64,000 nt of DNA from Rhodococcus maanshanensis NBRC 100610 (GTDB lineage: Bacteria; Actinomycetota; Actinomycetes; Mycobacteriales; Mycobacteriaceae): the NCBI RefSeq assembly GCF_001894865.1, contig NZ_BCXA01000007.1:1-64000 (forward strand), in the 5' to 3' direction. A program made the translations under genes and the position numbers. The notes under the pieces were generated by a model. That model was not told where the DNA came from and did no database searches. It saw nothing but the letters and a program-made list of their open reading frames with translations. Shown here piece by piece: positions 2,259 through 17,909 of this stretch. Position 1 is the stretch's first letter; each line of letters opens with the position of its first letter.

Positions 2259-2766
2259 TCAGTCGTTCATGACCGCCAGGGACCAGCACCAGCCGGCCAA
2301 CTCGCGGGCGATCGCCACGTTCGCCACCGTCGGCCGCTTACGGCGTTCGAGGAAACTCACCCACCGGTGGTGCAGGGGCGGTTGCCCTCGTCTCCACGGG
2401 CACGGGCCGCGGCCGGTGCCAGATCCCACCGTCGGCGCATCACCGTCCCGACGTGATAGCGGGGCCGGTGATGCCAGGCCGCTTCCACCAATAGTCGGCG
2501 AACATGGGTGTTCCCGGTCTTGGTGATCGCGCCCAGCACCCGTGATGAACCGGAGGAATACTCCGAGGGAACCAACCCGACGAACGATCCTTGCGAAAGC
2601 CGGTGAACCGGTTCCAGTCCCCGATCTCGAGTGCCAATGCGAACCCGGTCAAGGTGCTCACACCGCGCAGGCATGACATGCGGCGCACCAGTGGGGTGAA
2701 CTCGCTGTCCGCTGCCATTTCTTCGATCGCAGTGTCGAGGCGGCCGCGTCTGGCTTGCCTCGTCAT
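2259..2766 (-). pseudogene. IS110-family transposase remnant, frameshifted and N-terminally truncated
   Basis: Read on the minus strand, three frames in succession give a recognisable C-terminal half of an IS110/IS116/IS902 (Transposase_20) enzyme. Frame 1 (about 2766-2590) has [14 protein letters not shown] and [20 protein letters not shown]. Frame 2 (about 2598-2375) has LVPSEYSSG and [20 protein letters not shown]. Frame 3 (to the stop at 2259) has [15 protein letters not shown] and ELAGWCWSLAVMND. Two single-base shifts (near 2590 and 2380) and loss of the DEDD N-terminal half make it dead. Element ends were not recognised. It marks this stretch as an insertion-prone site next to the decayed protease copy. 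Confidence 0.8.
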
Positions 2767-2845
2767 CGGCGCCACATAGCCCTGCCAAAACCCCGCCACC
2801 TTGGGCTGAAAGTCACAGCTCCCCTTCCTCGATTCGTGTCCAGGT

Positions 2846-2865
2846 AACGACCGATTCTTGGACAG
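2846..2865 (+). repeat. 20-bp inverted repeat, left copy
   Basis: AACGACCGATTCTTGGACAG, found again as a perfect reverse complement at 4532-4551. The pair points inward and encloses the GH54 gene. A chance perfect 20-mer within 64 kb is unlikely. Confidence 0.75.
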
Positions 2866-2968
2866 GGGCTCGGTCGGGCAACTTGAGCGCAGCCTTGACC
2901 GACGGATGCGGGGGCCTACCAACCGAGCGGTCAGTCGGTTAGTCTCCGGGAGAGATTTCAACCCAAAG

Positions 2969-2987
2969 TGGCCTCCGATCGAGGCCA
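2969..2987. promoter_or_regulatory. Palindrome upstream of the GH54 gene, candidate operator
   Basis: TGGCCTCCGATCGAGGCCA has 7-bp arms around CGATC and lies 27 nt before the TTG start. A second, looser inverted repeat AACCGA-N8-TCGGTT sits at 2921-2940, behind a weak -35-like TTGACC at 2895. Both are plausible repressor sites; no regulator gene for them is identified. Confidence 0.4.
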
Positions 2988-3013
2988 GACGCGCATCAGA
3001 GTGGAGAACGCCC

Positions 3014-4327
3014 TTGTCTGTCGAATCCGCACACGCAACAAAGCGTCGTGCTCAGTCCATACCGGCCACCTTCGCACGCTCGAAACGACCTGCTGGAGCA
3101 CGGAGCTGGTCGAGGAGTCGTCGGGGCCGGGTTTTCGGTCTCGCGGTTGCACTGTTGGCGCTTCTGTTCGTCAACCCGTCAGTGGTGACGGGCGAGCCGC
3201 TGTCGGCGCCGCGGCCGTGCGATGTCTACGCCGCTGACGGCGCACCCTGTGTGGCTGCCTACAGCTCGGCGCGAGCGTTGTTCGCCGACTACGCCGGGGC
3301 TCTGTATCAGGTCGAGCGCCACTCCGACAGGGCCCGTACCGATATCGGTGTGACTGCCGCGGGCGGGTACGCCAACGCCTCGTACCAGGACGGGTTCTGT
3401 GCTGCGACACGATGCACCGTCACGACGATCTATGACCAGTCCGACCAGCACAACAACCTGATCCCACAGGGTCCGACGACGGCGATCTACTCGAACTTCT
3501 TCTTCCCTCACGAAGGGGTCGACGCGGCCGCCCTGCCGATCACCGTCGACGGTCGCCCCGCGTACGGCTTCAAGTTCGTCGATGCCCCGCCCGGAACCGG
3601 TCCGAGCGGGGGACAAATGGGACCATGCGAGATCGCGTTGACCTGCTTCACGCTCACCGGCTACCCAGGTCAGGCCTACAACAACGGCAACATCCGGGCC
3701 CGCGGTGTCGCGGTCAACGACGAGCCCGAGAGCATGTACGCAGTGTTCGGCGGCACCCACTCGGGCCGGGACTGCTGCTTCGACTTCGGCAACTCCGAAA
3801 TCTCGGGTACCGACACCGGCAACGGTCATATGGATGCGTTGAACTTCAGCCGTGCCTGCTGGAATGCCTGCGGGCCCGGGGACGGGCCGTGGGTGCAAGC
3901 CGACCTCGAAAACGGGATGTTCATGACGGGGACCCCCACCGAGCAGGCCGAGAACTACCGGGCCAAGCAAGGCGGCACCGCTAAGTCCGGTCTCGGATTC
4001 TGTTGCGCAGCCACGGCAGACAACAAGGCAATGCCCTACCCGTTCGTGACCGCGGTACTCGACAACCCCGGCTCCCAGACGTTCGCGATCAGGGGCGCGG
4101 ACGCCAACGGAGGCCAGCTGGAAACCTTCTATGACGGCCCGACACCACCGGGGCCCGGGTACTCGCCCATGCAGAAGGAAGGGGCCATCATTCTCGGATC
4201 CGGCGGCGACCAGGGAACAACCGACGGTGAGTTCTTCGAAGGGGCCATGACTTTCGGCGTGCCATCAGCCACCGCCCACGCGGCCGTTCAAGCCAATATC
4301 GCCAGCGCGCACTACACGATGCGGTGA
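3014..4327 (+). CDS. Secreted alpha-L-arabinofuranosidase, GH54 (AbfB catalytic domain)
   Basis: 437 residues from TTG 3014, preceded by GGAG at 3003-3006 (7-nt spacing); the longer upstream frame has no ribosome site. A basic N-region of about 45 residues leads to the hydrophobic segment GLAVALLALLFVN, a long signal sequence. The mature part begins PCDVYAADGAPCVAAYS and runs through YQVERHSD, GGYANASYQDGFC, VTTIYDQSDQHNNL and DCCFDFGN to the end: the ArabFuran-catal domain of fungal/bacterial AbfB, with its many cysteines. The C-terminal arabinose-binding beta-trefoil of fungal AbfB is absent, so only the catalytic domain is present. By family it releases terminal arabinofuranose from arabinans or arabinogalactan. 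In an organism with an arabinogalactan wall this could be nutritional or act on wall glycan; that is inference. It is bounded by inverted repeats. Confidence 0.82.
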   Translation: MSVESAHATKRRAQSIPATFARSKRPAGARSWSRSRRGRVFGLAVALLALLFVNPSVVTGEPLSAPRPCDVYAADGAPCVAAYSSARALFADYAGALYQVERHSDRARTDIGVTAAGGYANASYQDGFCAATRCTVTTIYDQSDQHNNLIPQGPTTAIYSNFFFPHEGVDAAALPITVDGRPAYGFKFVDAPPGTGPSGGQMGPCEIALTCFTLTGYPGQAYNNGNIRARGVAVNDEPESMYAVFGGTHSGRDCCFDFGNSEISGTDTGNGHMDALNFSRACWNACGPGDGPWVQADLENGMFMTGTPTEQAENYRAKQGGTAKSGLGFCCAATADNKAMPYPFVTAVLDNPGSQTFAIRGADANGGQLETFYDGPTPPGPGYSPMQKEGAIILGSGGDQGTTDGEFFEGAMTFGVPSATAHAAVQANIASAHYTMR

Positions 4328-10258: not shown

Positions 10259-10747
10259 TCAGACGAACTCGCGCACCAGCACGGTGAGCTCGACACCCGG
10301 CGCAGGCTCCCAGTCGCGCTGGGGCGCAGGGACGAAATCGTTGCGATCGTAGATGCGGCGGGCGTCGACCATGTCCGCCTCCGTCGAGATCACCACGCGT
10401 GCGAGCCCACGGTCGTAGGCCTCGTCCAGGACGTGCTTCACCAGCGCCGACCCCACGCCCTTACCGCGGGCGGTCGGCGCGACCGCGAGCATCCGGAACT
10501 CCAGTTCGCCCGGCTCCGCGACGTCGGCGAACGGGGTGCCGGGCTCGGCGATCGTCAGCGAACCGACGATCTCGTCACCGGCGACGGCCACAACGACCTC
10601 GGCGTGCTCCGCGCGGGTCGCGGTATCGCGCAGGCGGTCCACGTACGCGCTCGTGTCCGAAACGAATCCACCGTCTACGTAGACGTCGACGGTCAGCTCG
10701 CCGATGGTGTCGTAGTCGGCGGGCGTTGCGGGGCGAATCTCGATCAT
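10259..10747 (-). CDS. GNAT-family N-acetyltransferase
   Basis: 162 residues beginning MIEIRPATPADYD, a standard GNAT N-terminus. The acetyl-CoA pyrophosphate loop is visible as VAPTARGKGVGSALV (motif A, R/Q-x-x-G-x-G/A), followed by the motif B strand/helix ARRIYDRNDF. Substrate cannot be told from sequence. Convergent with the ACT-domain gene, 18 nt apart. Confidence 0.88.
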   Translation of the reverse strand: MIEIRPATPADYDTIGELTVDVYVDGGFVSDTSAYVDRLRDTATRAEHAEVVVAVAGDEIVGSLTIAEPGTPFADVAEPGELEFRMLAVAPTARGKGVGSALVKHVLDEAYDRGLARVVISTEADMVDARRIYDRNDFVPAPQRDWEPAPGVELTVLVREFV

Positions 10748-10810
10748 GGGGTCACTATCGCAGGAGATTCGTTGGTTCCCGTCACGCGTGCGGGCCGATT
10801 GTGAACAACC

Positions 10811-11911
10811 TCACCCGCGTACCGCCGTCGGCGTGAGGCGCGCGAGCTGGCCTTTTGCGCGCAGCAACAACGCACTGTCCCCGAACTCGTGCCAGAGGTA
10901 TCCCTCCTCGAGCGCGGCCTCGTATGCCCTGCGCACGACCGCCGGGCCCACCACCGACTCGAGGAGCATCAGGTGCGACGCGCCGGGGGCGTGCCAGCCC
11001 GTGACCAGGCCGTCCACTACCCGGGCCGGCCGCCGCGCGCTCAGCACCAGGTCCGTCCAGCCGGCCCCGGCCACCACCGTCCCGCGCTCGGTGGCCCCGG
11101 TTTCGAGTGCCCGGGTCACCGTGGTGCCGACCGCGATCACCCGGCCACCCGCGGCACGCCGGTCGTTGATCAGCCGGGCGGTCCACTCGGGTATCTCGTA
11201 CCGCTCGGGGATCGGTGGCTCGCCCGGTTCGGCCGACGAGACCGACGTGTGCAGCAGGACCGGCGCGACCACCACCCCCGACACGGCCAGCTCGGTGATC
11301 ATGGTGTGCGTGAACGGCCTTGCCGCGCTGGCCATCTCCGCGCTCCCCCGATCCCTCCCGAAGATGGTCTGGTAGTACGGCAGCGGCCACCGTTCCCGCA
11401 CGTACGCGTAGGTGATCGGCCTGCCTGCGACCGCGAGCAGATCCCGCGCGACGTCCGCGACGCCGTCGATCTCGGCGCGCCACAGCCTGATCGATGTCCG
11501 CGGCCACGGCTCCCGGAGGGTTGCCTCCGCGCTGAGCGGGAGGCGAATTCGCATGCCCGCGGCGGCATCGTCGAGCGGCCCTGTCACCGGACCGGGCGCC
11601 CGCACCTCCACCACCCAGGCGCCGTCGTCGAGCGGCATGGAGAAATGCACCACCACCGGGCCCACTCCGTCGACGGTGCCGTCGACGGCGGCGGCGAGGG
11701 TGGCCGACGTGTTCACGACCACAACGTCGCCCGCGCGCAGATACCTCGGCAGCTCGTGGAAACGGGCGTGCTCGACCCGCTCCCCCTCGGCCACCAACAG
11801 GCGCACGGTGTCCCGCAGCTGCCCGCGGCTCTCGGGCGGACCGCTCGCCTCCAGCCGGTCCGGCAGGACGAAGTCGGGCCCGGCCGCGGCCTCGACCCTC
11901 ACCTCGGTCAC
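10811..11911 (-). CDS. queA: S-adenosylmethionine:tRNA ribosyltransferase-isomerase-like protein (QueA family)
   Basis: 366 residues, matching QueA in length and motifs: DVVVVNTSATLAA near residue 62, PFTHTMI, TSVSS, VGTTVTRALE and WHAPGASHLMLLES. QueA transfers and isomerises the ribosyl moiety of SAM onto preQ1 in tRNA during queuosine synthesis. Its ATG overlaps the stop of an SDR gene (4 nt), and that operon starts at a SoxR-controlled promoter. No other queuosine genes occur in this window, and actinobacteria of this order commonly lack the full pathway, so the true substrate may differ from preQ1-tRNA. The family assignment is firm and the role is not. Confidence 0.85.
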   Translation of the reverse strand: MTEVRVEAAAGPDFVLPDRLEASGPPESRGQLRDTVRLLVAEGERVEHARFHELPRYLRAGDVVVVNTSATLAAAVDGTVDGVGPVVVHFSMPLDDGAWVVEVRAPGPVTGPLDDAAAGMRIRLPLSAEATLREPWPRTSIRLWRAEIDGVADVARDLLAVAGRPITYAYVRERWPLPYYQTIFGRDRGSAEMASAARPFTHTMITELAVSGVVVAPVLLHTSVSSAEPGEPPIPERYEIPEWTARLINDRRAAGGRVIAVGTTVTRALETGATERGTVVAGAGWTDLVLSARRPARVVDGLVTGWHAPGASHLMLLESVVGPAVVRRAYEAALEEGYLWHEFGDSALLLRAKGQLARLTPTAVRG

Positions 11912-12609
11912 GGCGACACCGCCTCGGTCAGCAGGTCGGCCGCGCGATAGCGGCCACTGCCCGGGCGGGTGTCGAGGAGCCGCAGCAGCGCGGGCACCAC
12001 CGTCTCGGGTTCGGGGCGGTCGGAGATGTCCTCACCTGGGAACGCCGCCTGGTGCATCGCGGTGCGCATGTCGCCCGGATCGAACGCGTATACCGAGAGC
12101 TGCGGTTGCTCCACCGCGAGCACGGCCGTCGCGTGGTCGAGGGCGGCCTTCGCCGCACCGTATCCGCCCCACCCCTCGTAGGCCTCGACCGCCGCGTCGG
12201 AGGACACGTTCACGATCGCCCCTGCCGCCCGGCTCACCGGTTCGAGCAGCGCGGAGATCAACGCCAGCGGCGCGATCACGTTCGTCGCGAACACGTTCGT
12301 CAGCTCGGCCTCCGGGTACCGTGCGAGCGCAGGCATCGGGCTCGGTCCGAGCGTGCTGGCGTTGTTGAGCAGCAGGTCCAGTCGCCCGCGGGTGGCGATC
12401 TCCGTGTGGAGCTGTTCCCGGTGCGCGGCATCGGTGACATCGCCCTGGCACGCGGTGATCCCGCTCGCCTGCGCCGCGACCCGAGCGAGGGCCGCATCGT
12501 GGCGACCGGTGACGATCACCTGCCAGCCCCGCTCGGCCAGCGCGAGCGCCACCGCCCTGCCGAAACCGGCCGATCCGCCGGTGATCAACGCCGTCTTGGT
12601 GTCGTCCAT
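11908..12609 (-). CDS. Short-chain dehydrogenase/reductase in SoxR-controlled operon
   Basis: 233 residues from ATG 12609, which has AAGGAGCT just upstream; earlier in-frame starts run into the promoter. Motifs: TALITGGSAGFGRAVA (cofactor glycine loop), LLNNASTLG, VNVSSDAA with the catalytic Ser, and YGAAKAA as YxxxK. A classical SDR of unknown substrate. First gene of an operon with queA. A 19-bp-spacer promoter and SoxR box lie in the 87-nt gap to soxR, so it is expected to be induced by redox-active compounds. Confidence 0.88.
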   Translation of the reverse strand: MDDTKTALITGGSAGFGRAVALALAERGWQVIVTGRHDAALARVAAQASGITACQGDVTDAAHREQLHTEIATRGRLDLLLNNASTLGPSPMPALARYPEAELTNVFATNVIAPLALISALLEPVSRAAGAIVNVSSDAAVEAYEGWGGYGAAKAALDHATAVLAVEQPQLSVYAFDPGDMRTAMHQAAFPGEDISDRPEPETVVPALLRLLDTRPGSGRYRAADLLTEAVSP

Positions 12610-12642
12610 CAGAGCTCCTTGCGTCCCGTGACTTCTGGGACC

Positions 12643-12673
12643 ATCCTGAAAGCTCAAGTTCACTTGATGTCAA
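12643..12673 (-). promoter_or_regulatory. SoxR-type promoter with 19-bp spacer driving the SDR-queA operon
   Basis: On the minus strand: TTGACA (12673-12668), a 19-nt spacer, CAGGAT (12648-12643). The overlong spacer is the hallmark of promoters activated by MerR-family proteins through DNA untwisting, and the SoxR box lies inside it. Confidence 0.75.
12653..12669. promoter_or_regulatory. SoxR box
   Basis: CTCAAGTTCACTTGATG, nearly identical to the classical SoxR operator CCTCAAGTTAACTTGAGG, centred between the -35 and -10 above. Confidence 0.85.
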
Positions 12674-12696
12674 GGACCGCAGGTGAGGAGCTCCCC

Positions 12697-13170
12697 ATGC
12701 GCACCACGGATCTGCTGACCGTCGGCGAGGTGGCGCGACGCAGCGGCCTGGCCCCGTCCGCACTGCGGTACTACGAGGACCAGGGCCTGATCACGTCGAG
12801 CAGGACGTCGGGCAACCAGCGGCGCTATCAGCGCAGCGTGCTGCGCAGGATCGCCTTCGTCCGCGCCGCGAGGAGCATCGGGCTCAGCCTGGAGGAGGTG
12901 GCCGAGGCGCTGGCCCAGCTGCCGGACGGGCGCGCCCCGACCCGGGCCGATTGGACCAGGCTGTCGCAGAGTTGGCGCGGCAGGCTCAACGAGCAGATCG
13001 ACGCCCTGATCGCGCTGCGCGACGGGCTCGATTCCTGCATCGGCTGCGGGTGCCTCTCCCTCAAGACGTGCGCACTGTCGAACCCGGGCGATGCCGCCGC
13101 GAGCTACGGACCCGGTGCGGCCTACCTACCCAAGGCGCTGCATCGCGACGACGCGGAACGCCCCGCCTGA
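12697..13170 (+). CDS. soxR: Redox-sensing MerR-family regulator SoxR
   Basis: 157 residues from ATG 12697 with GTGAGGAG upstream. MerR helix-turn-helix VGEVARRSGLAPSALRYYED (9-28) is followed by the RNQRRYxR wing. The C-terminal cluster C114-IG-C117-G-C119-LSLKT-C125 has exactly the C-x2-C-x-C-x5-C spacing that holds the SoxR [2Fe-2S] centre. It senses oxidation or redox-cycling compounds. It is divergent from the SDR-queA operon, whose promoter carries a near-consensus SoxR box, so that operon is its likely target. Unlike enterobacteria, actinobacterial SoxR usually acts directly on oxidoreductase genes and not through soxS. Confidence 0.95.
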   Translation: MRTTDLLTVGEVARRSGLAPSALRYYEDQGLITSSRTSGNQRRYQRSVLRRIAFVRAARSIGLSLEEVAEALAQLPDGRAPTRADWTRLSQSWRGRLNEQIDALIALRDGLDSCIGCGCLSLKTCALSNPGDAAASYGPGAAYLPKALHRDDAERPA

Positions 13171-13197: not shown

Positions 13198-13956
13198 CTA
13201 CTCGAGGTCGAAGCGCAGCAGTGCCGCCCGGATCTTCTGGGTCGCGGCATGCACTGCGAGGCCGTACGTTTCGTACTTGTCGGCGGTGATCCGGCTCGTC
13301 GGACCGGACACCGACACCGAGGCCAGTGGCTGCCCGTCGGCGTCGAGGACGGCCGCGCCGATCGCCGTGATGCCGGTACTCAGACCCTGATCGTTGATCG
13401 AGTATCCGCGACCCCGGATCTGCTCGATGGTTTCCCAGAGCACGTCGGCGTCCGTGATGGTGCTCGGCGTCCGCGGGGCGAGCCCGTCGGCCACATAGGA
13501 CCGGACCGCGTCGTCGGGCTGCGCCGCGAGGAAGGCCTGCCCGGTCGCGGAGGCGTGCATCGGGATCCGTTGCCCCAGTGGCATGAACGCGCGCAAGGAG
13601 TGTGCGGTGTCGAGCCGTTCGATGAGGACCATCTCCCGCCCGTCCGGGGCGCAGAGGTGGATGGTCTCCGTGGTCGCCAACTGCAGCTCGTTCAATGTGG
13701 GCAGCGCCGTTTCCCGAATCTGCTGATGGTCACGGGCTTTGCTGCCGACCGAGAAGGCCCGGTAGGTCAGGCTCCACCGCGTCGGCGCGGCGGAACTCGG
13801 CCGGAGCCAACCGAGTTCGTGCAGCGTCAGCAGGCACCTCTGCACCGTGCTCTTGGGCAGGTCCACCATCCTGCTGAGCTCCGACAGCCCGACGGGCTGC
13901 TGTTCGGCCACCGTCTCCAGCACCCGAAATGCGGAAACGACGCTGTTGGTGGGCAT
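13198..13956 (-). CDS. IclR-family regulator, probably of the malonate genes
   Basis: 252 residues. Winged helix-turn-helix at 1-70 (SELSRMVDLPKSTVQRCLLTL) and IclR effector domain (MHASATGQAFLAA, STGITAIGAAVLD, SVSGPTSRI). Divergent from the MatC-like carrier and matB; such placement usually marks the local regulator. In Rhizobium and Streptomyces the mat genes are governed by a GntR protein, so IclR control here would be a variation. Effector unknown; malonate or malonyl-CoA is a guess from context. Confidence 0.88.
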   Translation of the reverse strand: MPTNSVVSAFRVLETVAEQQPVGLSELSRMVDLPKSTVQRCLLTLHELGWLRPSSAAPTRWSLTYRAFSVGSKARDHQQIRETALPTLNELQLATTETIHLCAPDGREMVLIERLDTAHSLRAFMPLGQRIPMHASATGQAFLAAQPDDAVRSYVADGLAPRTPSTITDADVLWETIEQIRGRGYSINDQGLSTGITAIGAAVLDADGQPLASVSVSGPTSRITADKYETYGLAVHAATQKIRAALLRFDLE

Positions 13957-14092
13957 TTGACCTCCGAGTTTGTTGACGCTGCCGCCCGGTGTGAGCTAGC
14001 TTACACGGCATCGGTTCGCTAGATAGACCAGTGTGCCACACAGTGGACCGATTGGGAATACCCGCCCCCACACTCCTGGAAAAGGCAACCGC

Positions 14093-15482
14093 ATGGCTCT
14101 ACAGCTCTCGGCGCTCGTCATCTTTTGTCGGCGTCTTCTTGGTATCCACGCTCCGCAAGGTCCACATCGGCGTGCTCATGTTCGCCACCGCGTGCGGCGT
14201 CGGGCTCTGGCTGGCCGACATGCCCATCGACGACATCATCGGGGGATTCCCGCTGAGCATCCTGGTGCTGCTCGTGGGCGTGACCTACTTCTTCGCGATC
14301 GCTCAGTCCAACGGCACCATCGACCGCATCATCGAGGTCGCGCTCGCCAAGGTCGGCGACAACGCCGCCGTGCTGCCCTTCGTCTTCTTTGCGCTGACGG
14401 CAGGGATCTCGGCCATGGGCTCGCCACTTGGCGGCCTGGTGGTGGCCCCGATCGGCATGCCGATCGCCAGGAAGTACGGCATGGACCCGATGCTCATGGG
14501 TCTGGCCATCGGGACCGGACTGAGCGCCGGGGCCTTCGCCCCGACCAGTCTCTTCGGGATCGTCAGCTACGGCACCGCCCACGAGGCCGGGATCGAACTG
14601 AGCCCGCTCACCCTGTTCACGGTTGCCGTCGTCGTCAACCTGGTGTTGCTGCTCGGCGCGTTCGTCATGTTCGGCGGATCCAGGTTGCGACAGCGTCACG
14701 TCGCACTGGCCACCGAGATCGGTTCGAGAACACCGTCTTTCGTCACCAGCATCGCCACAGGAGCGGGCACCGCCCAGTACGAGGGCGACGTGACGCACCG
14801 CATCGCAGGCAGCCGCCTCGACGACGGACCGGGACCCCGGCACGGAACGCTCGCCGAACGGGAACCGTTCACGGGGGTCCAGATCGCCACGGTGATCTGC
14901 ATGGTGGGGCTCGTCGGCGCCGTCATCGGGATCTCGCTCGCAGGCCAGGACCCGGACATCGGGGTGCTCGGTTTCGCCTTCGGGGCGGTGCTGACGCTGA
15001 TCGACCCGAAATCCGGCAACAGCGCCGTCGCGAAGATCGACTGGTCGACGGTCCTGTTGGTGGGCGGCATCATCACCTATGTCGGTGTCCTGCAGCACAT
15101 GGGCGCCGTCGACCTGCTCGGGGAAACGGCGGGCAAGGTGGGCGTTCCGATCGTCGCGGCCCTGATCATCTGCCTCCTCGGCGGCCTCATCTCGGCCTTC
15201 GCGTCGACAACCGGCATGCTGGCCGCCCTCGTGCCGCTGGCGCTGCCGCTGGTCGCCACCGGCGACATCCCCGGCTGGGCCCTGATCTGCGCGCTCGCCG
15301 TCTGCTCCTCCATCGTGGACGTCTCGCCGTTCTCGACCGTGGGAGCGACCCTCGTCGCCTCGGTCGCCGAGGACCAGCGGGCCCGGATGACCAGCCTGCT
15401 GACCCGATGGGGGATGTCGATGGTGGTCATCGGCCCCGTCGCGCTCGTCGGCACCCTGGTCGTGCCCGCGATGGTCCTGTGA
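14093..15482 (+). CDS. matC: MatC-like malonate/dicarboxylate carrier with apparent +1 frameshift near the start
   Basis: ATG 14093 follows GGAAAAGG and begins MALQLSALVIF. The frame is then lost: after TCTTTT (14121-14126) the rest, VGVFLVSTLRKVHIGVLMF onward, continues in another frame to the stop at 15482. Removing one T restores a single 462-residue protein matching MatC_N carriers (MSxQLxALxIFVxVF... in that family). About 12 hydrophobic segments are visible, with a hydrophilic central loop near 14690-14870. It would import malonate for MatB, the next gene. The shift is in a T4 run: a sequencing error, a real inactivating mutation or slippage are all possible. No start with a ribosome site exists in the downstream frame. 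Confidence 0.8.
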
Positions 15483-15522
15483 CCGGGGCCTGAAGAACCA
15501 ACCCACCGAAAGGAACTCACCA

Positions 15523-16935
15523 GTGCTTCTCTCGTCATTGGACCCGTCCGGCCACCACGCGGTGGACCTCGCCGATGCGATCACCCTCGGGGACACGAGC
15601 ATGTCGCGATCCGAACTGTTCTCCGCCGCAAGCGGCCTGGCGGCGGCACTCCCGGATGCCGGACCCGTAGCCGTCTGCGCGGAACCCACCCTCGAGACGA
15701 TCATCGCCGTGACGGGGTGCCTGCTGGCGGGGGTGCCCGTGGTGCCGGTCCCGCCCGACTCCGGTCCGGCGGAACTCCGGCACATCATCGCGGATTCCGG
15801 TGCCACCCAGTGGATCGGCCCCACACAGATCGACAGCGGACTCCCGACCATCCCTGTGGACCGCAGGCCGAGCACGAGCGGACAGCTCGGTCGGCCGTCG
15901 ATGGACGAGCTGGCCATGATCCTCTACACGTCAGGGACCACCGGCGCACCCAAGGGCGTCCTGTTGACCCACCGCGCCCTCGCCGCGGGCATCGACGCCC
16001 TCGCCGACGCGTGGCAGTGGACCGCCGACGACACCTTGGTGCACGGGCTACCGCTGTTCCACATGCACGGCCTCGTGCTCGGCGTGCTCGCGTCCCTCCG
16101 GATCGGTTCGCGCGTCACCCACACGGTGCGGCCGAAACCTGCGGCCTACGCGGCGGCGCCGGGAACCATGTATTTCGGTGTGCCCACGGTGTGGTCGAGG
16201 ATCGCGGAGGACGAGCAGTCCGCGCGGGCGCTGCGCCGGGCGCGGCTCCTGGTGTCGGGGAGCGCCGCGCTCTCGGTCCCGGTGTTCGAACGAATCACCC
16301 AGCTCACGGGGATCCCGCCCATCGAGCGGTACGGCATGAGCGAGACGATGATCACCCTGAGCACCCGCGCGGACGGCGAACGCAGGCCGGGCTGGGTGGG
16401 GCAACCGCTTCGCGGCGTCGAGACCCGCCTGCGTACCGAGGACGGCCAGATCGTGGCGCACGACGGATCGAGCATCGGCCGCCTGGAGGTCAGGGGGCCG
16501 ATGCTGTTCGACGGCTACCTGAACCGGCCGGAGGCCACGGCCGCCGCATGGACGGACGACGGCTGGTTCGTCACAGGCGACGTCGCAACCTGCGATCCGG
16601 CCGGATTCCACCGGATCGTCGGTCGCGAGTCGACGGATCTGATCAAGTCGGGCGGCTATCGCATCGGCGCGGGCGAGGTCGAGGCGGCACTGCTCGCACA
16701 CCCCTCGGTCGCGGAGGTCGCCGTCGTCGGGGTTCCCGACAGCGATCTCGGTCAGCGGGTGGTCGCGTTCGTCGTAACCTCCGAGACGAGTCCCGGATCC
16801 GCGCTGGGCGAGCGCCTGATCGACTACGTGGCAGGCGACCTCTCCCGGCACAAGCGGCCGCGCGAGGTGCGGTTCGTCGACGCGCTTCCGCGGAACGCGA
16901 TGGGAAAGGTGCAGAAGGCGGCGCTCGCCCGGTAG
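15523..16935 (+). CDS. matB: Malonyl-CoA synthetase
   Basis: 470 residues in the ANL adenylation superfamily: ATP loop ILYTSGTTGAPKGVLLTHR, IERYGMSETM, GDVATCDPAGFHRIVGR hinge and the terminal lysine motif NAMGKVQKAAL. It shares with characterised Streptomyces MatB the stretches DALADAWQWT and HGLPLFHMHGLVLG, which make it more than a generic acyl-CoA ligase. MatB converts malonate (and methylmalonate) plus CoA and ATP to malonyl-CoA, feeding fatty-acid or polyketide synthesis. AAAGGAA ribosome site; 40 nt after the MatC-like gene, so one operon. Confidence 0.9.
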   Translation: MLLSSLDPSGHHAVDLADAITLGDTSMSRSELFSAASGLAAALPDAGPVAVCAEPTLETIIAVTGCLLAGVPVVPVPPDSGPAELRHIIADSGATQWIGPTQIDSGLPTIPVDRRPSTSGQLGRPSMDELAMILYTSGTTGAPKGVLLTHRALAAGIDALADAWQWTADDTLVHGLPLFHMHGLVLGVLASLRIGSRVTHTVRPKPAAYAAAPGTMYFGVPTVWSRIAEDEQSARALRRARLLVSGSAALSVPVFERITQLTGIPPIERYGMSETMITLSTRADGERRPGWVGQPLRGVETRLRTEDGQIVAHDGSSIGRLEVRGPMLFDGYLNRPEATAAAWTDDGWFVTGDVATCDPAGFHRIVGRESTDLIKSGGYRIGAGEVEAALLAHPSVAEVAVVGVPDSDLGQRVVAFVVTSETSPGSALGERLIDYVAGDLSRHKRPREVRFVDALPRNAMGKVQKAALAR

Positions 16936-16958
16936 CGGGGTCGACGGCGCCCGGCTCC

Positions 16959-17909
16959 CTACTCGGGCAGCCGGGCGCGCAGGGCCCGCACGAACCAGTC
17001 GAGCGCGGCCGCCGAACTGTCGGGCACGGCCCATCCGTTGACCACGGCGAGCAGCCGCAGGTAGCGCTCCCGGCGCGGGTCGTTCGCGGCCTCGAGCCGC
17101 GACAGCAGCCGCCGCTGGAGCCCGACATCGTCGGAGCCACCGCGCAGTCGGGCGTACTGCGCCGTCACCTCCTCGACCACCGGAGTCGCCTCGGGCGCGG
17201 ACGGGTCGACGCCCGCGGCCACCATCGGCGCCGCGTGGTCCCGGACGACCGCGACGATCTCACGGCGCACGCCGACCGCGCCGCCGTGCGCACGTGCTGC
17301 CCTCTGGTCTGCCGCGTGGTCCTGCGCGATCTCCCTCATGACGACGCGAAAGTCCGGATCCCAAGACAGTTCGGCGAGTTCCACCCACGCCTCGATCTGT
17401 TCCGCCTCGGGGTTCTCGGGCAGTTCCGGGGTCATCGAGCGCATGATCCCCTGGAACCCGGGTTCGCCATCGAGTCCGCCGAAGGCGTTGTCGAGGAAAT
17501 CGACTATCAGGCTTCGCCGTTCGGACTCGGACAGCTTGGCCAGCTTGTGCACGAGTCTCATCTCCTCCGGGCCGGATCCACGCTTGGCCACCACCGACAA
17601 CACCGTCCGCCGCAGACTCAGCGTCCGGATCTGCGCCGCCAGCGCCTCGGCGTGCGCAGCCGCGACCTCGGGCAGGGACGTCTGGCGGTCCACGACCCCC
17701 TTGATCGTGACCAGGTCCAATCCCAGCTCGCGCAGCGTCCGCACGAGATCCAGCCGCGCGATCGCGTCGACGTCGTAGAGCCGGTAGCCGGCGGGGCTGC
17801 GGCCGGTCGGCGGCACGATCCCCCGATCCGCGTAGAACCGAATGGCCTTGACCGTCAGTCCGGTTCGCCGGGCCAGATCACCGATCGAGTAGAGCGCGTC
17901 GTCGTCCAT
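16959..17909 (-). CDS. MerR-family regulator with long C-terminal domain
   Basis: 316 residues. N-terminal MerR DNA-binding domain (YSIGDLARRTGLTVKAIRFYADRG ... YRLYD, 7-50) and dimerisation helix to about 120. The remaining 190 residues are helical, without cysteine clusters, so it is not a metal or SoxR-type sensor; probably an organic-ligand sensor. Convergent with matB. A perfect palindrome 28 nt upstream of its start is the likely autoregulatory site. Target beyond itself not evident. Confidence 0.85.
   Translation of the reverse strand: MDDDALYSIGDLARRTGLTVKAIRFYADRGIVPPTGRSPAGYRLYDVDAIARLDLVRTLRELGLDLVTIKGVVDRQTSLPEVAAAHAEALAAQIRTLSLRRTVLSVVAKRGSGPEEMRLVHKLAKLSESERRSLIVDFLDNAFGGLDGEPGFQGIMRSMTPELPENPEAEQIEAWVELAELSWDPDFRVVMREIAQDHAADQRAARAHGGAVGVRREIVAVVRDHAAPMVAAGVDPSAPEATPVVEEVTAQYARLRGGSDDVGLQRRLLSRLEAANDPRRERYLRLLAVVNGWAVPDSSAAALDWFVRALRARLPE

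Follow-up and report, generated by a model that had tools for sequence, protein, structure and literature searches.

A SoxR-type promoter precedes a conserved gene pair for a short-chain dehydrogenase/reductase and a QueA-like enzyme in Rhodococcus maanshanensis

Our analysis of a 64,000-nucleotide stretch of the Rhodococcus maanshanensis NBRC 100610 genome (contig NZ_BCXA01000007.1, positions 1 to 64,000; hereafter the window) revealed a SoxR-type promoter between soxR and a divergent two-gene operon that encodes a short-chain dehydrogenase/reductase (SDR) and a protein with the fold of the queuosine enzyme QueA. SoxR control of this SDR/QueA-like pair is well supported by the promoter and its conservation, and SoxR would be expected to bind there and induce both genes. 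We propose that the pair probably constitutes a SoxR-induced small-molecule redox-stress pathway, in which an SDR is combined with a neofunctionalised QueA fold and no queuosine is made.

Results

Read on the minus strand from 12673 to 12643, the soxR/SDR intergenic region carries TTGACA, 19 nt and then CAGGAT, oriented toward the SDR gene (Table 1). The spacer holds a dyad whose best 18-bp version (12652-12669) pairs at six of nine positions, its inner part being TCAAGT-GA-ACTTGA, so that the arrangement of a SoxR-controlled promoter, a dyad between hexamers 19 nt apart, is present. The weak CAGGAT hexamer is as expected for an activator-dependent promoter, and no ordinary sigma-70 promoter with a 16-18-nt spacer was found between 10200 and 13300. 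The operator CTCAAGTTCACTTGATG (12653-12669, plus strand) matches once in the window with up to three mismatches allowed, against 0.01 matches expected, and TCAAGTNNACTTGA, with 12 specified bases, has a single mismatch-free match in the 5.67-Mb genome; because allowing zero to two mismatches gives 26 genome sites and the reversed control gives 27, the perfect site alone is distinctive. A 31-bp promoter pattern, derived from this promoter and related sites, matches this locus alone in the genome at up to one mismatch, and its reversed control matches nowhere. These results bear out an earlier note on this DNA, which had claimed a SoxR box inside a 19-nt-spacer promoter. That note had also described the neighbouring soxR as an intact four-cysteine gene, and it is: the [2Fe-2S] ligand motif CX2CXCX5C is present as CIGCGCLSLKTC, the product scores 209.1 bits against the TIGR01950 equivalog cut-off of 116.9, and its best match in the Protein Data Bank (PDB) is E. 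coli SoxR (2zhg, E 2.8e-45). A four-Cys activator of the MerR type and a dyad within a 19-nt spacer are shared with the known SoxR systems of E. coli (soxS) and Streptomyces coelicolor (a six-gene regulon).

Table 1. Features of the soxR/SDR/QueA-like locus in the window
Feature	Position	Strand	Basis
-35 hexamer TTGACA of the SDR promoter	12668..12673	-	sequence and pattern search
19-nt spacer occupied by a SoxR-type dyad	12649..12667	-	dyad and pattern searches
-10 hexamer CAGGAT	12643..12648	-	weak hexamer; pattern search
AAGGAG ribosome-binding site of the SDR gene	12615..12620	-	5 nt ahead of the SDR ATG, read from sequence
soxR, divergent to the pair	12697..13170	+	intact CX2CXCX5C; profile score; PDB match
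SDR, 233 aa	11908..12609	-	glycine-rich and YxxxK motifs
4-nt stop/start overlap of SDR and QueA-like genes	11908..11911	-	ORF ends
QueA-like enzyme, PF02547 superfamily, non-canonical clade, 366 aa, GTG start	10811..11911	-	profile, tree, motifs
GNAT acetyltransferase	10259..10747	-	63 nt downstream of the QueA-like gene

The pair was compared across 82 related loci, 22 from a first homologue set and 60 fetched from as many of the 71 genomes with full-length matches to the QueA-like protein (the others being the window's own genome, G000, and the unfetched G258, G211, G037, G392, G383, G304, G358, G241, G375 and G033); with the window the loci number 83. In all 82 the SDR gene lies upstream of the QueA-like gene on the same strand. 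It ends at most 700 bp from it in 80 (L020 is cut by a contig end) and about 1 kb away in L097 and L107. The window's SDR product carries an adh_short domain (130.9 bits) with the glycine-rich motif and YxxxK; 79 of 80 SDR relatives retain the former and 77 the latter, which is missing in L023 and in L020 and L085, both short reads.

In 24 loci, the window among them, a divergent SoxR gene adjoins the pair, and there the promoter is kept. Under the same rules for linked and unlinked loci, TTG(A/C)CN-N19-(T/C)A with an AA(G/C)N4CTT dyad precedes the SDR gene in 23 of the 24 linked loci (L083 misses) and in one of 57 unlinked upstream regions; a looser dyad gives 24 of 24 and two of 57, and leaving the -10 free raises the unlinked matches to two and three, respectively (L005, L023 and L128). 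Two of the unlinked loci, L020 and L101, have fewer than 150 bases upstream, and L097 and L107 were left out on account of their distant SDR genes. Spacers of 16-18 or 20-21 nt occur in none of the linked loci. Unlike in known SoxR systems, the dyad arms in most relatives have changed, to TGAAGT or TAAAGT with ACTTCA, and the window keeps the classical TCAAGT with ACTTGA. The 31-bp pattern has 30 sites in 39 genomes and none for its reversed control; 22 of the 30 are the SDR promoter, one in each of 22 linked genomes, and of the 24 only G205 and G086 have no match there. Sites of this kind went into the pattern, and what is informative is therefore its rarity elsewhere. As a side observation, box matches overlap in more than one register upstream of the SDR gene in L098 and L105, which possibly have two SoxR sites each.

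The box also lies 30-43 nt ahead of the soxR start, and the Discussion of PMC4146615 puts the share of soxR homologues with a potential upstream box at about 13 percent in the other Streptomyces surveyed, either of which would suit an operator that serves soxR autoregulation only and leaves the pair uncontrolled. We find this hardly credible. The -35 and -10 elements face the SDR gene in the 24 linked loci, a similar SDR promoter is kept in L005 and L023 with no soxR found beside it, and soxR of S. coelicolor is not autoregulated (PMC4146615).

The pair-linked SoxRs form a group of their own in the sequence tree. The SoxR search covered 57 of 73 carriers of the QueA-like gene and 23 genomes picked as non-carriers. 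Twenty-three linked (truncated L121 omitted) and 20 unlinked ("free") proteins lie on the two sides of a 96/94 branch, with L160 and L144 as exceptions; the SoxR of L160 is probably linked, since its contig ends in a divergent SDR gene. A SoxR subgroup adjacent to one main target likewise sets these loci apart from known SoxR systems. The window's genome encodes a second SoxR on contig C63 (227 bits), placed in the free group as L141. Besides 23 two-mismatch sites, this genome has two one-mismatch boxes, which were examined. The box at C8:26444 (L137:5990-6025) is near-canonical and looks real: TTGACC and TACGGT stand 19 nt apart around the dyad TCAAGTTAACTCGA and precede an ABC exporter, comparable to the S. 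coelicolor SoxR target SCO7008, and the promoter is possibly a target of the SoxR on C63. The box at C26:78526, at the 3' end of a permease frame and with no 19-nt-spacer promoter seen, was set aside.

What is the QueA-like protein? It retains the QueA fold, scores 218.1 bits for PF02547 against a cut-off of 25 and is the only PF02547 protein of its genome; a 93% identical protein occurs in R. oryzae. The fold is described in PMC1282579, and QueA work is listed in PMC6313347. Against the models of the reference enzyme, the tRNA preQ1(34) S-adenosylmethionine (SAM) ribosyltransferase-isomerase (TIGR00113/NF001140; structures 1wdi, 1vky and 1yy3), the protein stays below the equivalog cut-offs (117.3 against 267.45, 147.6 against 324 and, for a third model, 71.2 against 588). 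Its family has conserved motifs of its own in place of the canonical ones: PTAGLHF is replaced by the consensus SAEMPSAGRPF (SAEMASAARPF in the window), LHVGxGTF by LHTGVSSPE (LHTSVSSAE in the window), only the E remains of HxMHxE, and YLWHEFGD near the C-terminus is a family motif unlike canonical QueA. We derived this canonical set from E. coli QueA together with the canonical proteins compared, not each of which matches each motif exactly. In a tree the QueA-like and canonical proteins, 32 and 16 rows, split at 100/100 (of 16 canonical proteins fetched, one had to be dropped as too short). We therefore regard the gene as a member of a separate paralogous family within the PF02547 superfamily and not as queA. 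The earlier note's operon of SDR and QueA-family genes stands, with its overlap at 11908-11911 and its PF02547 assignment; the gene is no QueA orthologue, and the description of a QueA with a side job gives way to that of a paralogue in a clade of its own.

The retained fold, together with 40 of 76 strongly conserved positions, would also suit an enzyme that modifies tRNA or another RNA at a base not installed by TGT, as part of a translational stress response, and queuosine loss has been linked to oxidative stress in E. coli (PMC9508795). Such a role appears unlikely to us. The SDR partner is fixed in 82 of 82 loci, nothing RNA-specific is in evidence, and the known targets of SoxR in S. coelicolor are a transporter and redox enzymes that act on small molecules (PMC4146615).

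The occurrence of queuosine genes separates the family further from QueA. TGT makes preQ1-tRNA, the substrate of QueA, and the QueA-like enzyme hence cannot make queuosine in genomes truly without TGT. Among 73 carriers (the 71 genomes with full-length matches plus G001 and G003; G069, G314, G022, G368, G263, G063, G252, G083, G145 and G161, with partial matches only, were left out), 26 have TGT, and none was found in the other 47, which include the single-contig genomes G155, G028 and G231. TGT was not found in 21 of the 24 SoxR-linked genomes, the three others being Rhodococcus (G000, G001 and G003). The QueA-like family as a whole is not regularly accompanied by TGT. One family, f18, has TGT in 22 of 23 carriers; in the three of these whose positions were compared (G103, G046 and G178), a canonical queA and tgt are immediate neighbours and the QueA-like gene lies elsewhere. 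Matches to QueC pass the Pfam cut-off of 22 bits in 46 of the 73 carriers, with only seven full-length and at least 195 bits; the other listed matches, partial and of at most 61 bits, are presumably other PP-loop enzymes, as seen for the window's genome only, where the sub-cut-off match falls in an asparagine synthase.

The window's genome does contain one TGT, which adjoins a Vut_1 transporter (L001); their contig is a different one, with no linkage to the SoxR pair. Both members of the queuosine salvage set TGT plus YhhQ/Vut_1 are thus present here; TGT was not found in most carriers, and Vut_1 was looked at in this genome only. With a QueA fold in the sole PF02547 protein of the genome, the QueA-like protein might then be its queuosine QueA, acting after preQ1 import by Vut_1 and insertion by TGT, with SoxR only adding stress control. 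This reading is very improbable. Besides the family scores, the loss of the canonical motifs, the TGT-less majority of carriers and the three genomes with a canonical queA elsewhere, genome searches found neither QueG nor QueH to finish queuosine, nor a true QueC. A full que pathway that includes this gene, which the earlier note had named as the finding that would speak against it, is thus not what the genome offers, QueD, QueE and QueF not having been searched. For most carriers the absence of TGT, the family scores and the tree led us to reject a canonical queuosine role, in line with the non-queuosine role that had been suggested.

Regulators other than SoxR accompany the pair elsewhere. 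By tblastn, the 82 loci comprise 23 with divergent SoxR, 20 with a divergent kinase and LuxR-type regulator, 20 with a co-directional kinase and regulator, one with a regulator alone, three with a SufR-related protein and 15 with none of the searched types. Pfam GAF and HisKA_3 domains were found in the four kinases scanned (L009, L016, L114 and L079), the other kinases being assigned by similarity, and NCBIfam gave only sub-cut-off kinase matches; the GAF kinases may resemble the DevS type and might bind heme. The SufR-related neighbours in L012, L022 and L118 score 108.0, 126.5 and 85.7 bits against the TIGR02702 cut-off of 178.8, and by this measure are related, not orthologous, to the cyanobacterial SufR model. 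Several cysteines occur in the GAF region (YCYCLDTY...LACSRL) of the f18 kinase of L079 (1862-3169), which runs in the direction of the pair; a putative metal or Fe-S cluster site there would fit the redox theme.

When 81 neighbourhoods were clustered, a rough procedure with antisense frames and chained clusters, the SDR, QueA-like and regulator families alone recurred in more than 20 loci. One cluster of 20 loci combines an ABC-transporter ATPase and other frames, and we recognised no biosynthetic enzyme that would be a constant third partner. Soil actinomycetes are rich in secreted and signalling metabolites. The named carriers are mostly such organisms, and several regulator types command the one pair, which leaves some room for a pair that makes a secreted or signalling SAM-derived metabolite under redox-dependent control, with no detoxification. 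We consider this improbable given the missing third partner. In f18 loci such as L079, L086, L087, L091, L093, L097, L103, L107 and L108, the SDR and QueA-like genes are about 450-1000 bp apart, room for a further small gene.

Turning to the surroundings of the pair, a GNAT gene adjoins it in L003 and L006 among the first 22 relative loci, as in the window, and is possibly co-transcribed with it in Rhodococcus. On the other side, the window at 13198-17909 holds an IclR regulator, a MatC/CitMHS-type carrier, an AMP-binding ligase and a MerR regulator, and resembles a cluster for the uptake and activation of malonate or other dicarboxylates. Between 52001 and 56000 the G+C content is about 0.62 against about 0.70, with no RNA gene found there; this stretch may be foreign DNA.

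Discussion

What the sequences show directly is the promoter, its conserved coupling to the pair, a separate enzyme family and the lack of TGT in most carriers; SoxR binding and induction, the small-molecule substrate and any use of SAM we infer. We propose the following model. Oxidised SoxR activates over-long promoters. The [2Fe-2S] SoxR would sit on the over-long 19-nt spacer, and its oxidation by redox-cycling compounds would distort the promoter such that RNA polymerase transcribes the SDR and QueA-like genes together. The SDR may then use NAD(P)(H) to reduce or oxidise a compound of the carbonyl or quinone type. The QueA-like enzyme, which combines the QueA fold with remodelled conserved residues, may act on the SDR's compound or on a SAM-like nucleoside, so that both would serve one pathway against redox or electrophile stress. 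More tentatively, and with considerable doubt, we speculate that the QueA fold was recruited off tRNA for the transfer or isomerisation of a SAM-derived ribosyl group, with a redox-active small molecule or the product of the SDR as acceptor; such a new conjugation or cyclopentane-forming chemistry would have been captured independently by unrelated putative stress regulators (SoxR, SufR-like proteins and GAF kinases).

Several observations weigh against a SoxR-induced small-molecule pathway. SoxR adjoins the pair in only 24 of 83 loci, and 15 loci lack any searched regulator. Eight of the 30 pattern sites lie elsewhere (three in G133, one each in G005, G140, G205, G236 and G391), that on G205:C292 immediately ahead of a different SoxR gene. 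In L083 (G155) the linked SoxR has no C-terminal Cys cluster in the frame read; its 19-nt promoter is kept, as found with the looser dyad. In the related Rhodococcus G005 (L144, about 2468-3454), soxR stays and the pair is gone. Its alignment with the window holds to either side of the pair and fails over 10764-12693. A decayed operator remains, as do, beside the GNAT gene, the last nine QueA-like codons (FGDSALLLR), so that the locus looks like a deletion scar. The TGT next to Vut_1 in the window's own genome is a further point. Many of the sampled genomes are fragmented and interrelated, which means that the counts lack independence and that gaps may account for some absences. Finally, we know of no QueA structure with substrate by which the changed residues could be read chemically.

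Published work offers few parallels. The S. coelicolor SoxR regulon of six genes, a transporter and small-molecule redox enzymes, was described together with a survey of 55 Streptomyces (PMC4146615), and the list is repeated in PMC7674942; the SDR/QueA-like target is absent from the published Streptomyces regulon (PMC4146615, Table 4), and no QueA-like gene is named in the parts of that paper cited here. Queuosine and oxidative stress are discussed in PMC12503941, where queuosine acts on the SoxR regulon of Vibrio cholerae, and in PMC9508795, in both cases without SoxR control of QueA in the portions cited. Among the matches listed in the open-licence PMC literature, none describes SoxR control of a QueA-like gene or of the pair.

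What is the relevance of this family? Its branch matches the Pfam queuosine family and invites a queuosine annotation, even though 47 of its 73 carrier genomes yielded no TGT. The constant SDR partner, the adjacent SoxR with a nearly private operator and the TGT-less carriers make the function directly testable. If the enzyme does use SAM on a small molecule, the unusual QueA reaction would extend beyond RNA, and the pair would represent a new class of target for SoxR regulons, which in S. coelicolor comprise a transporter and redox enzymes (PMC4146615).
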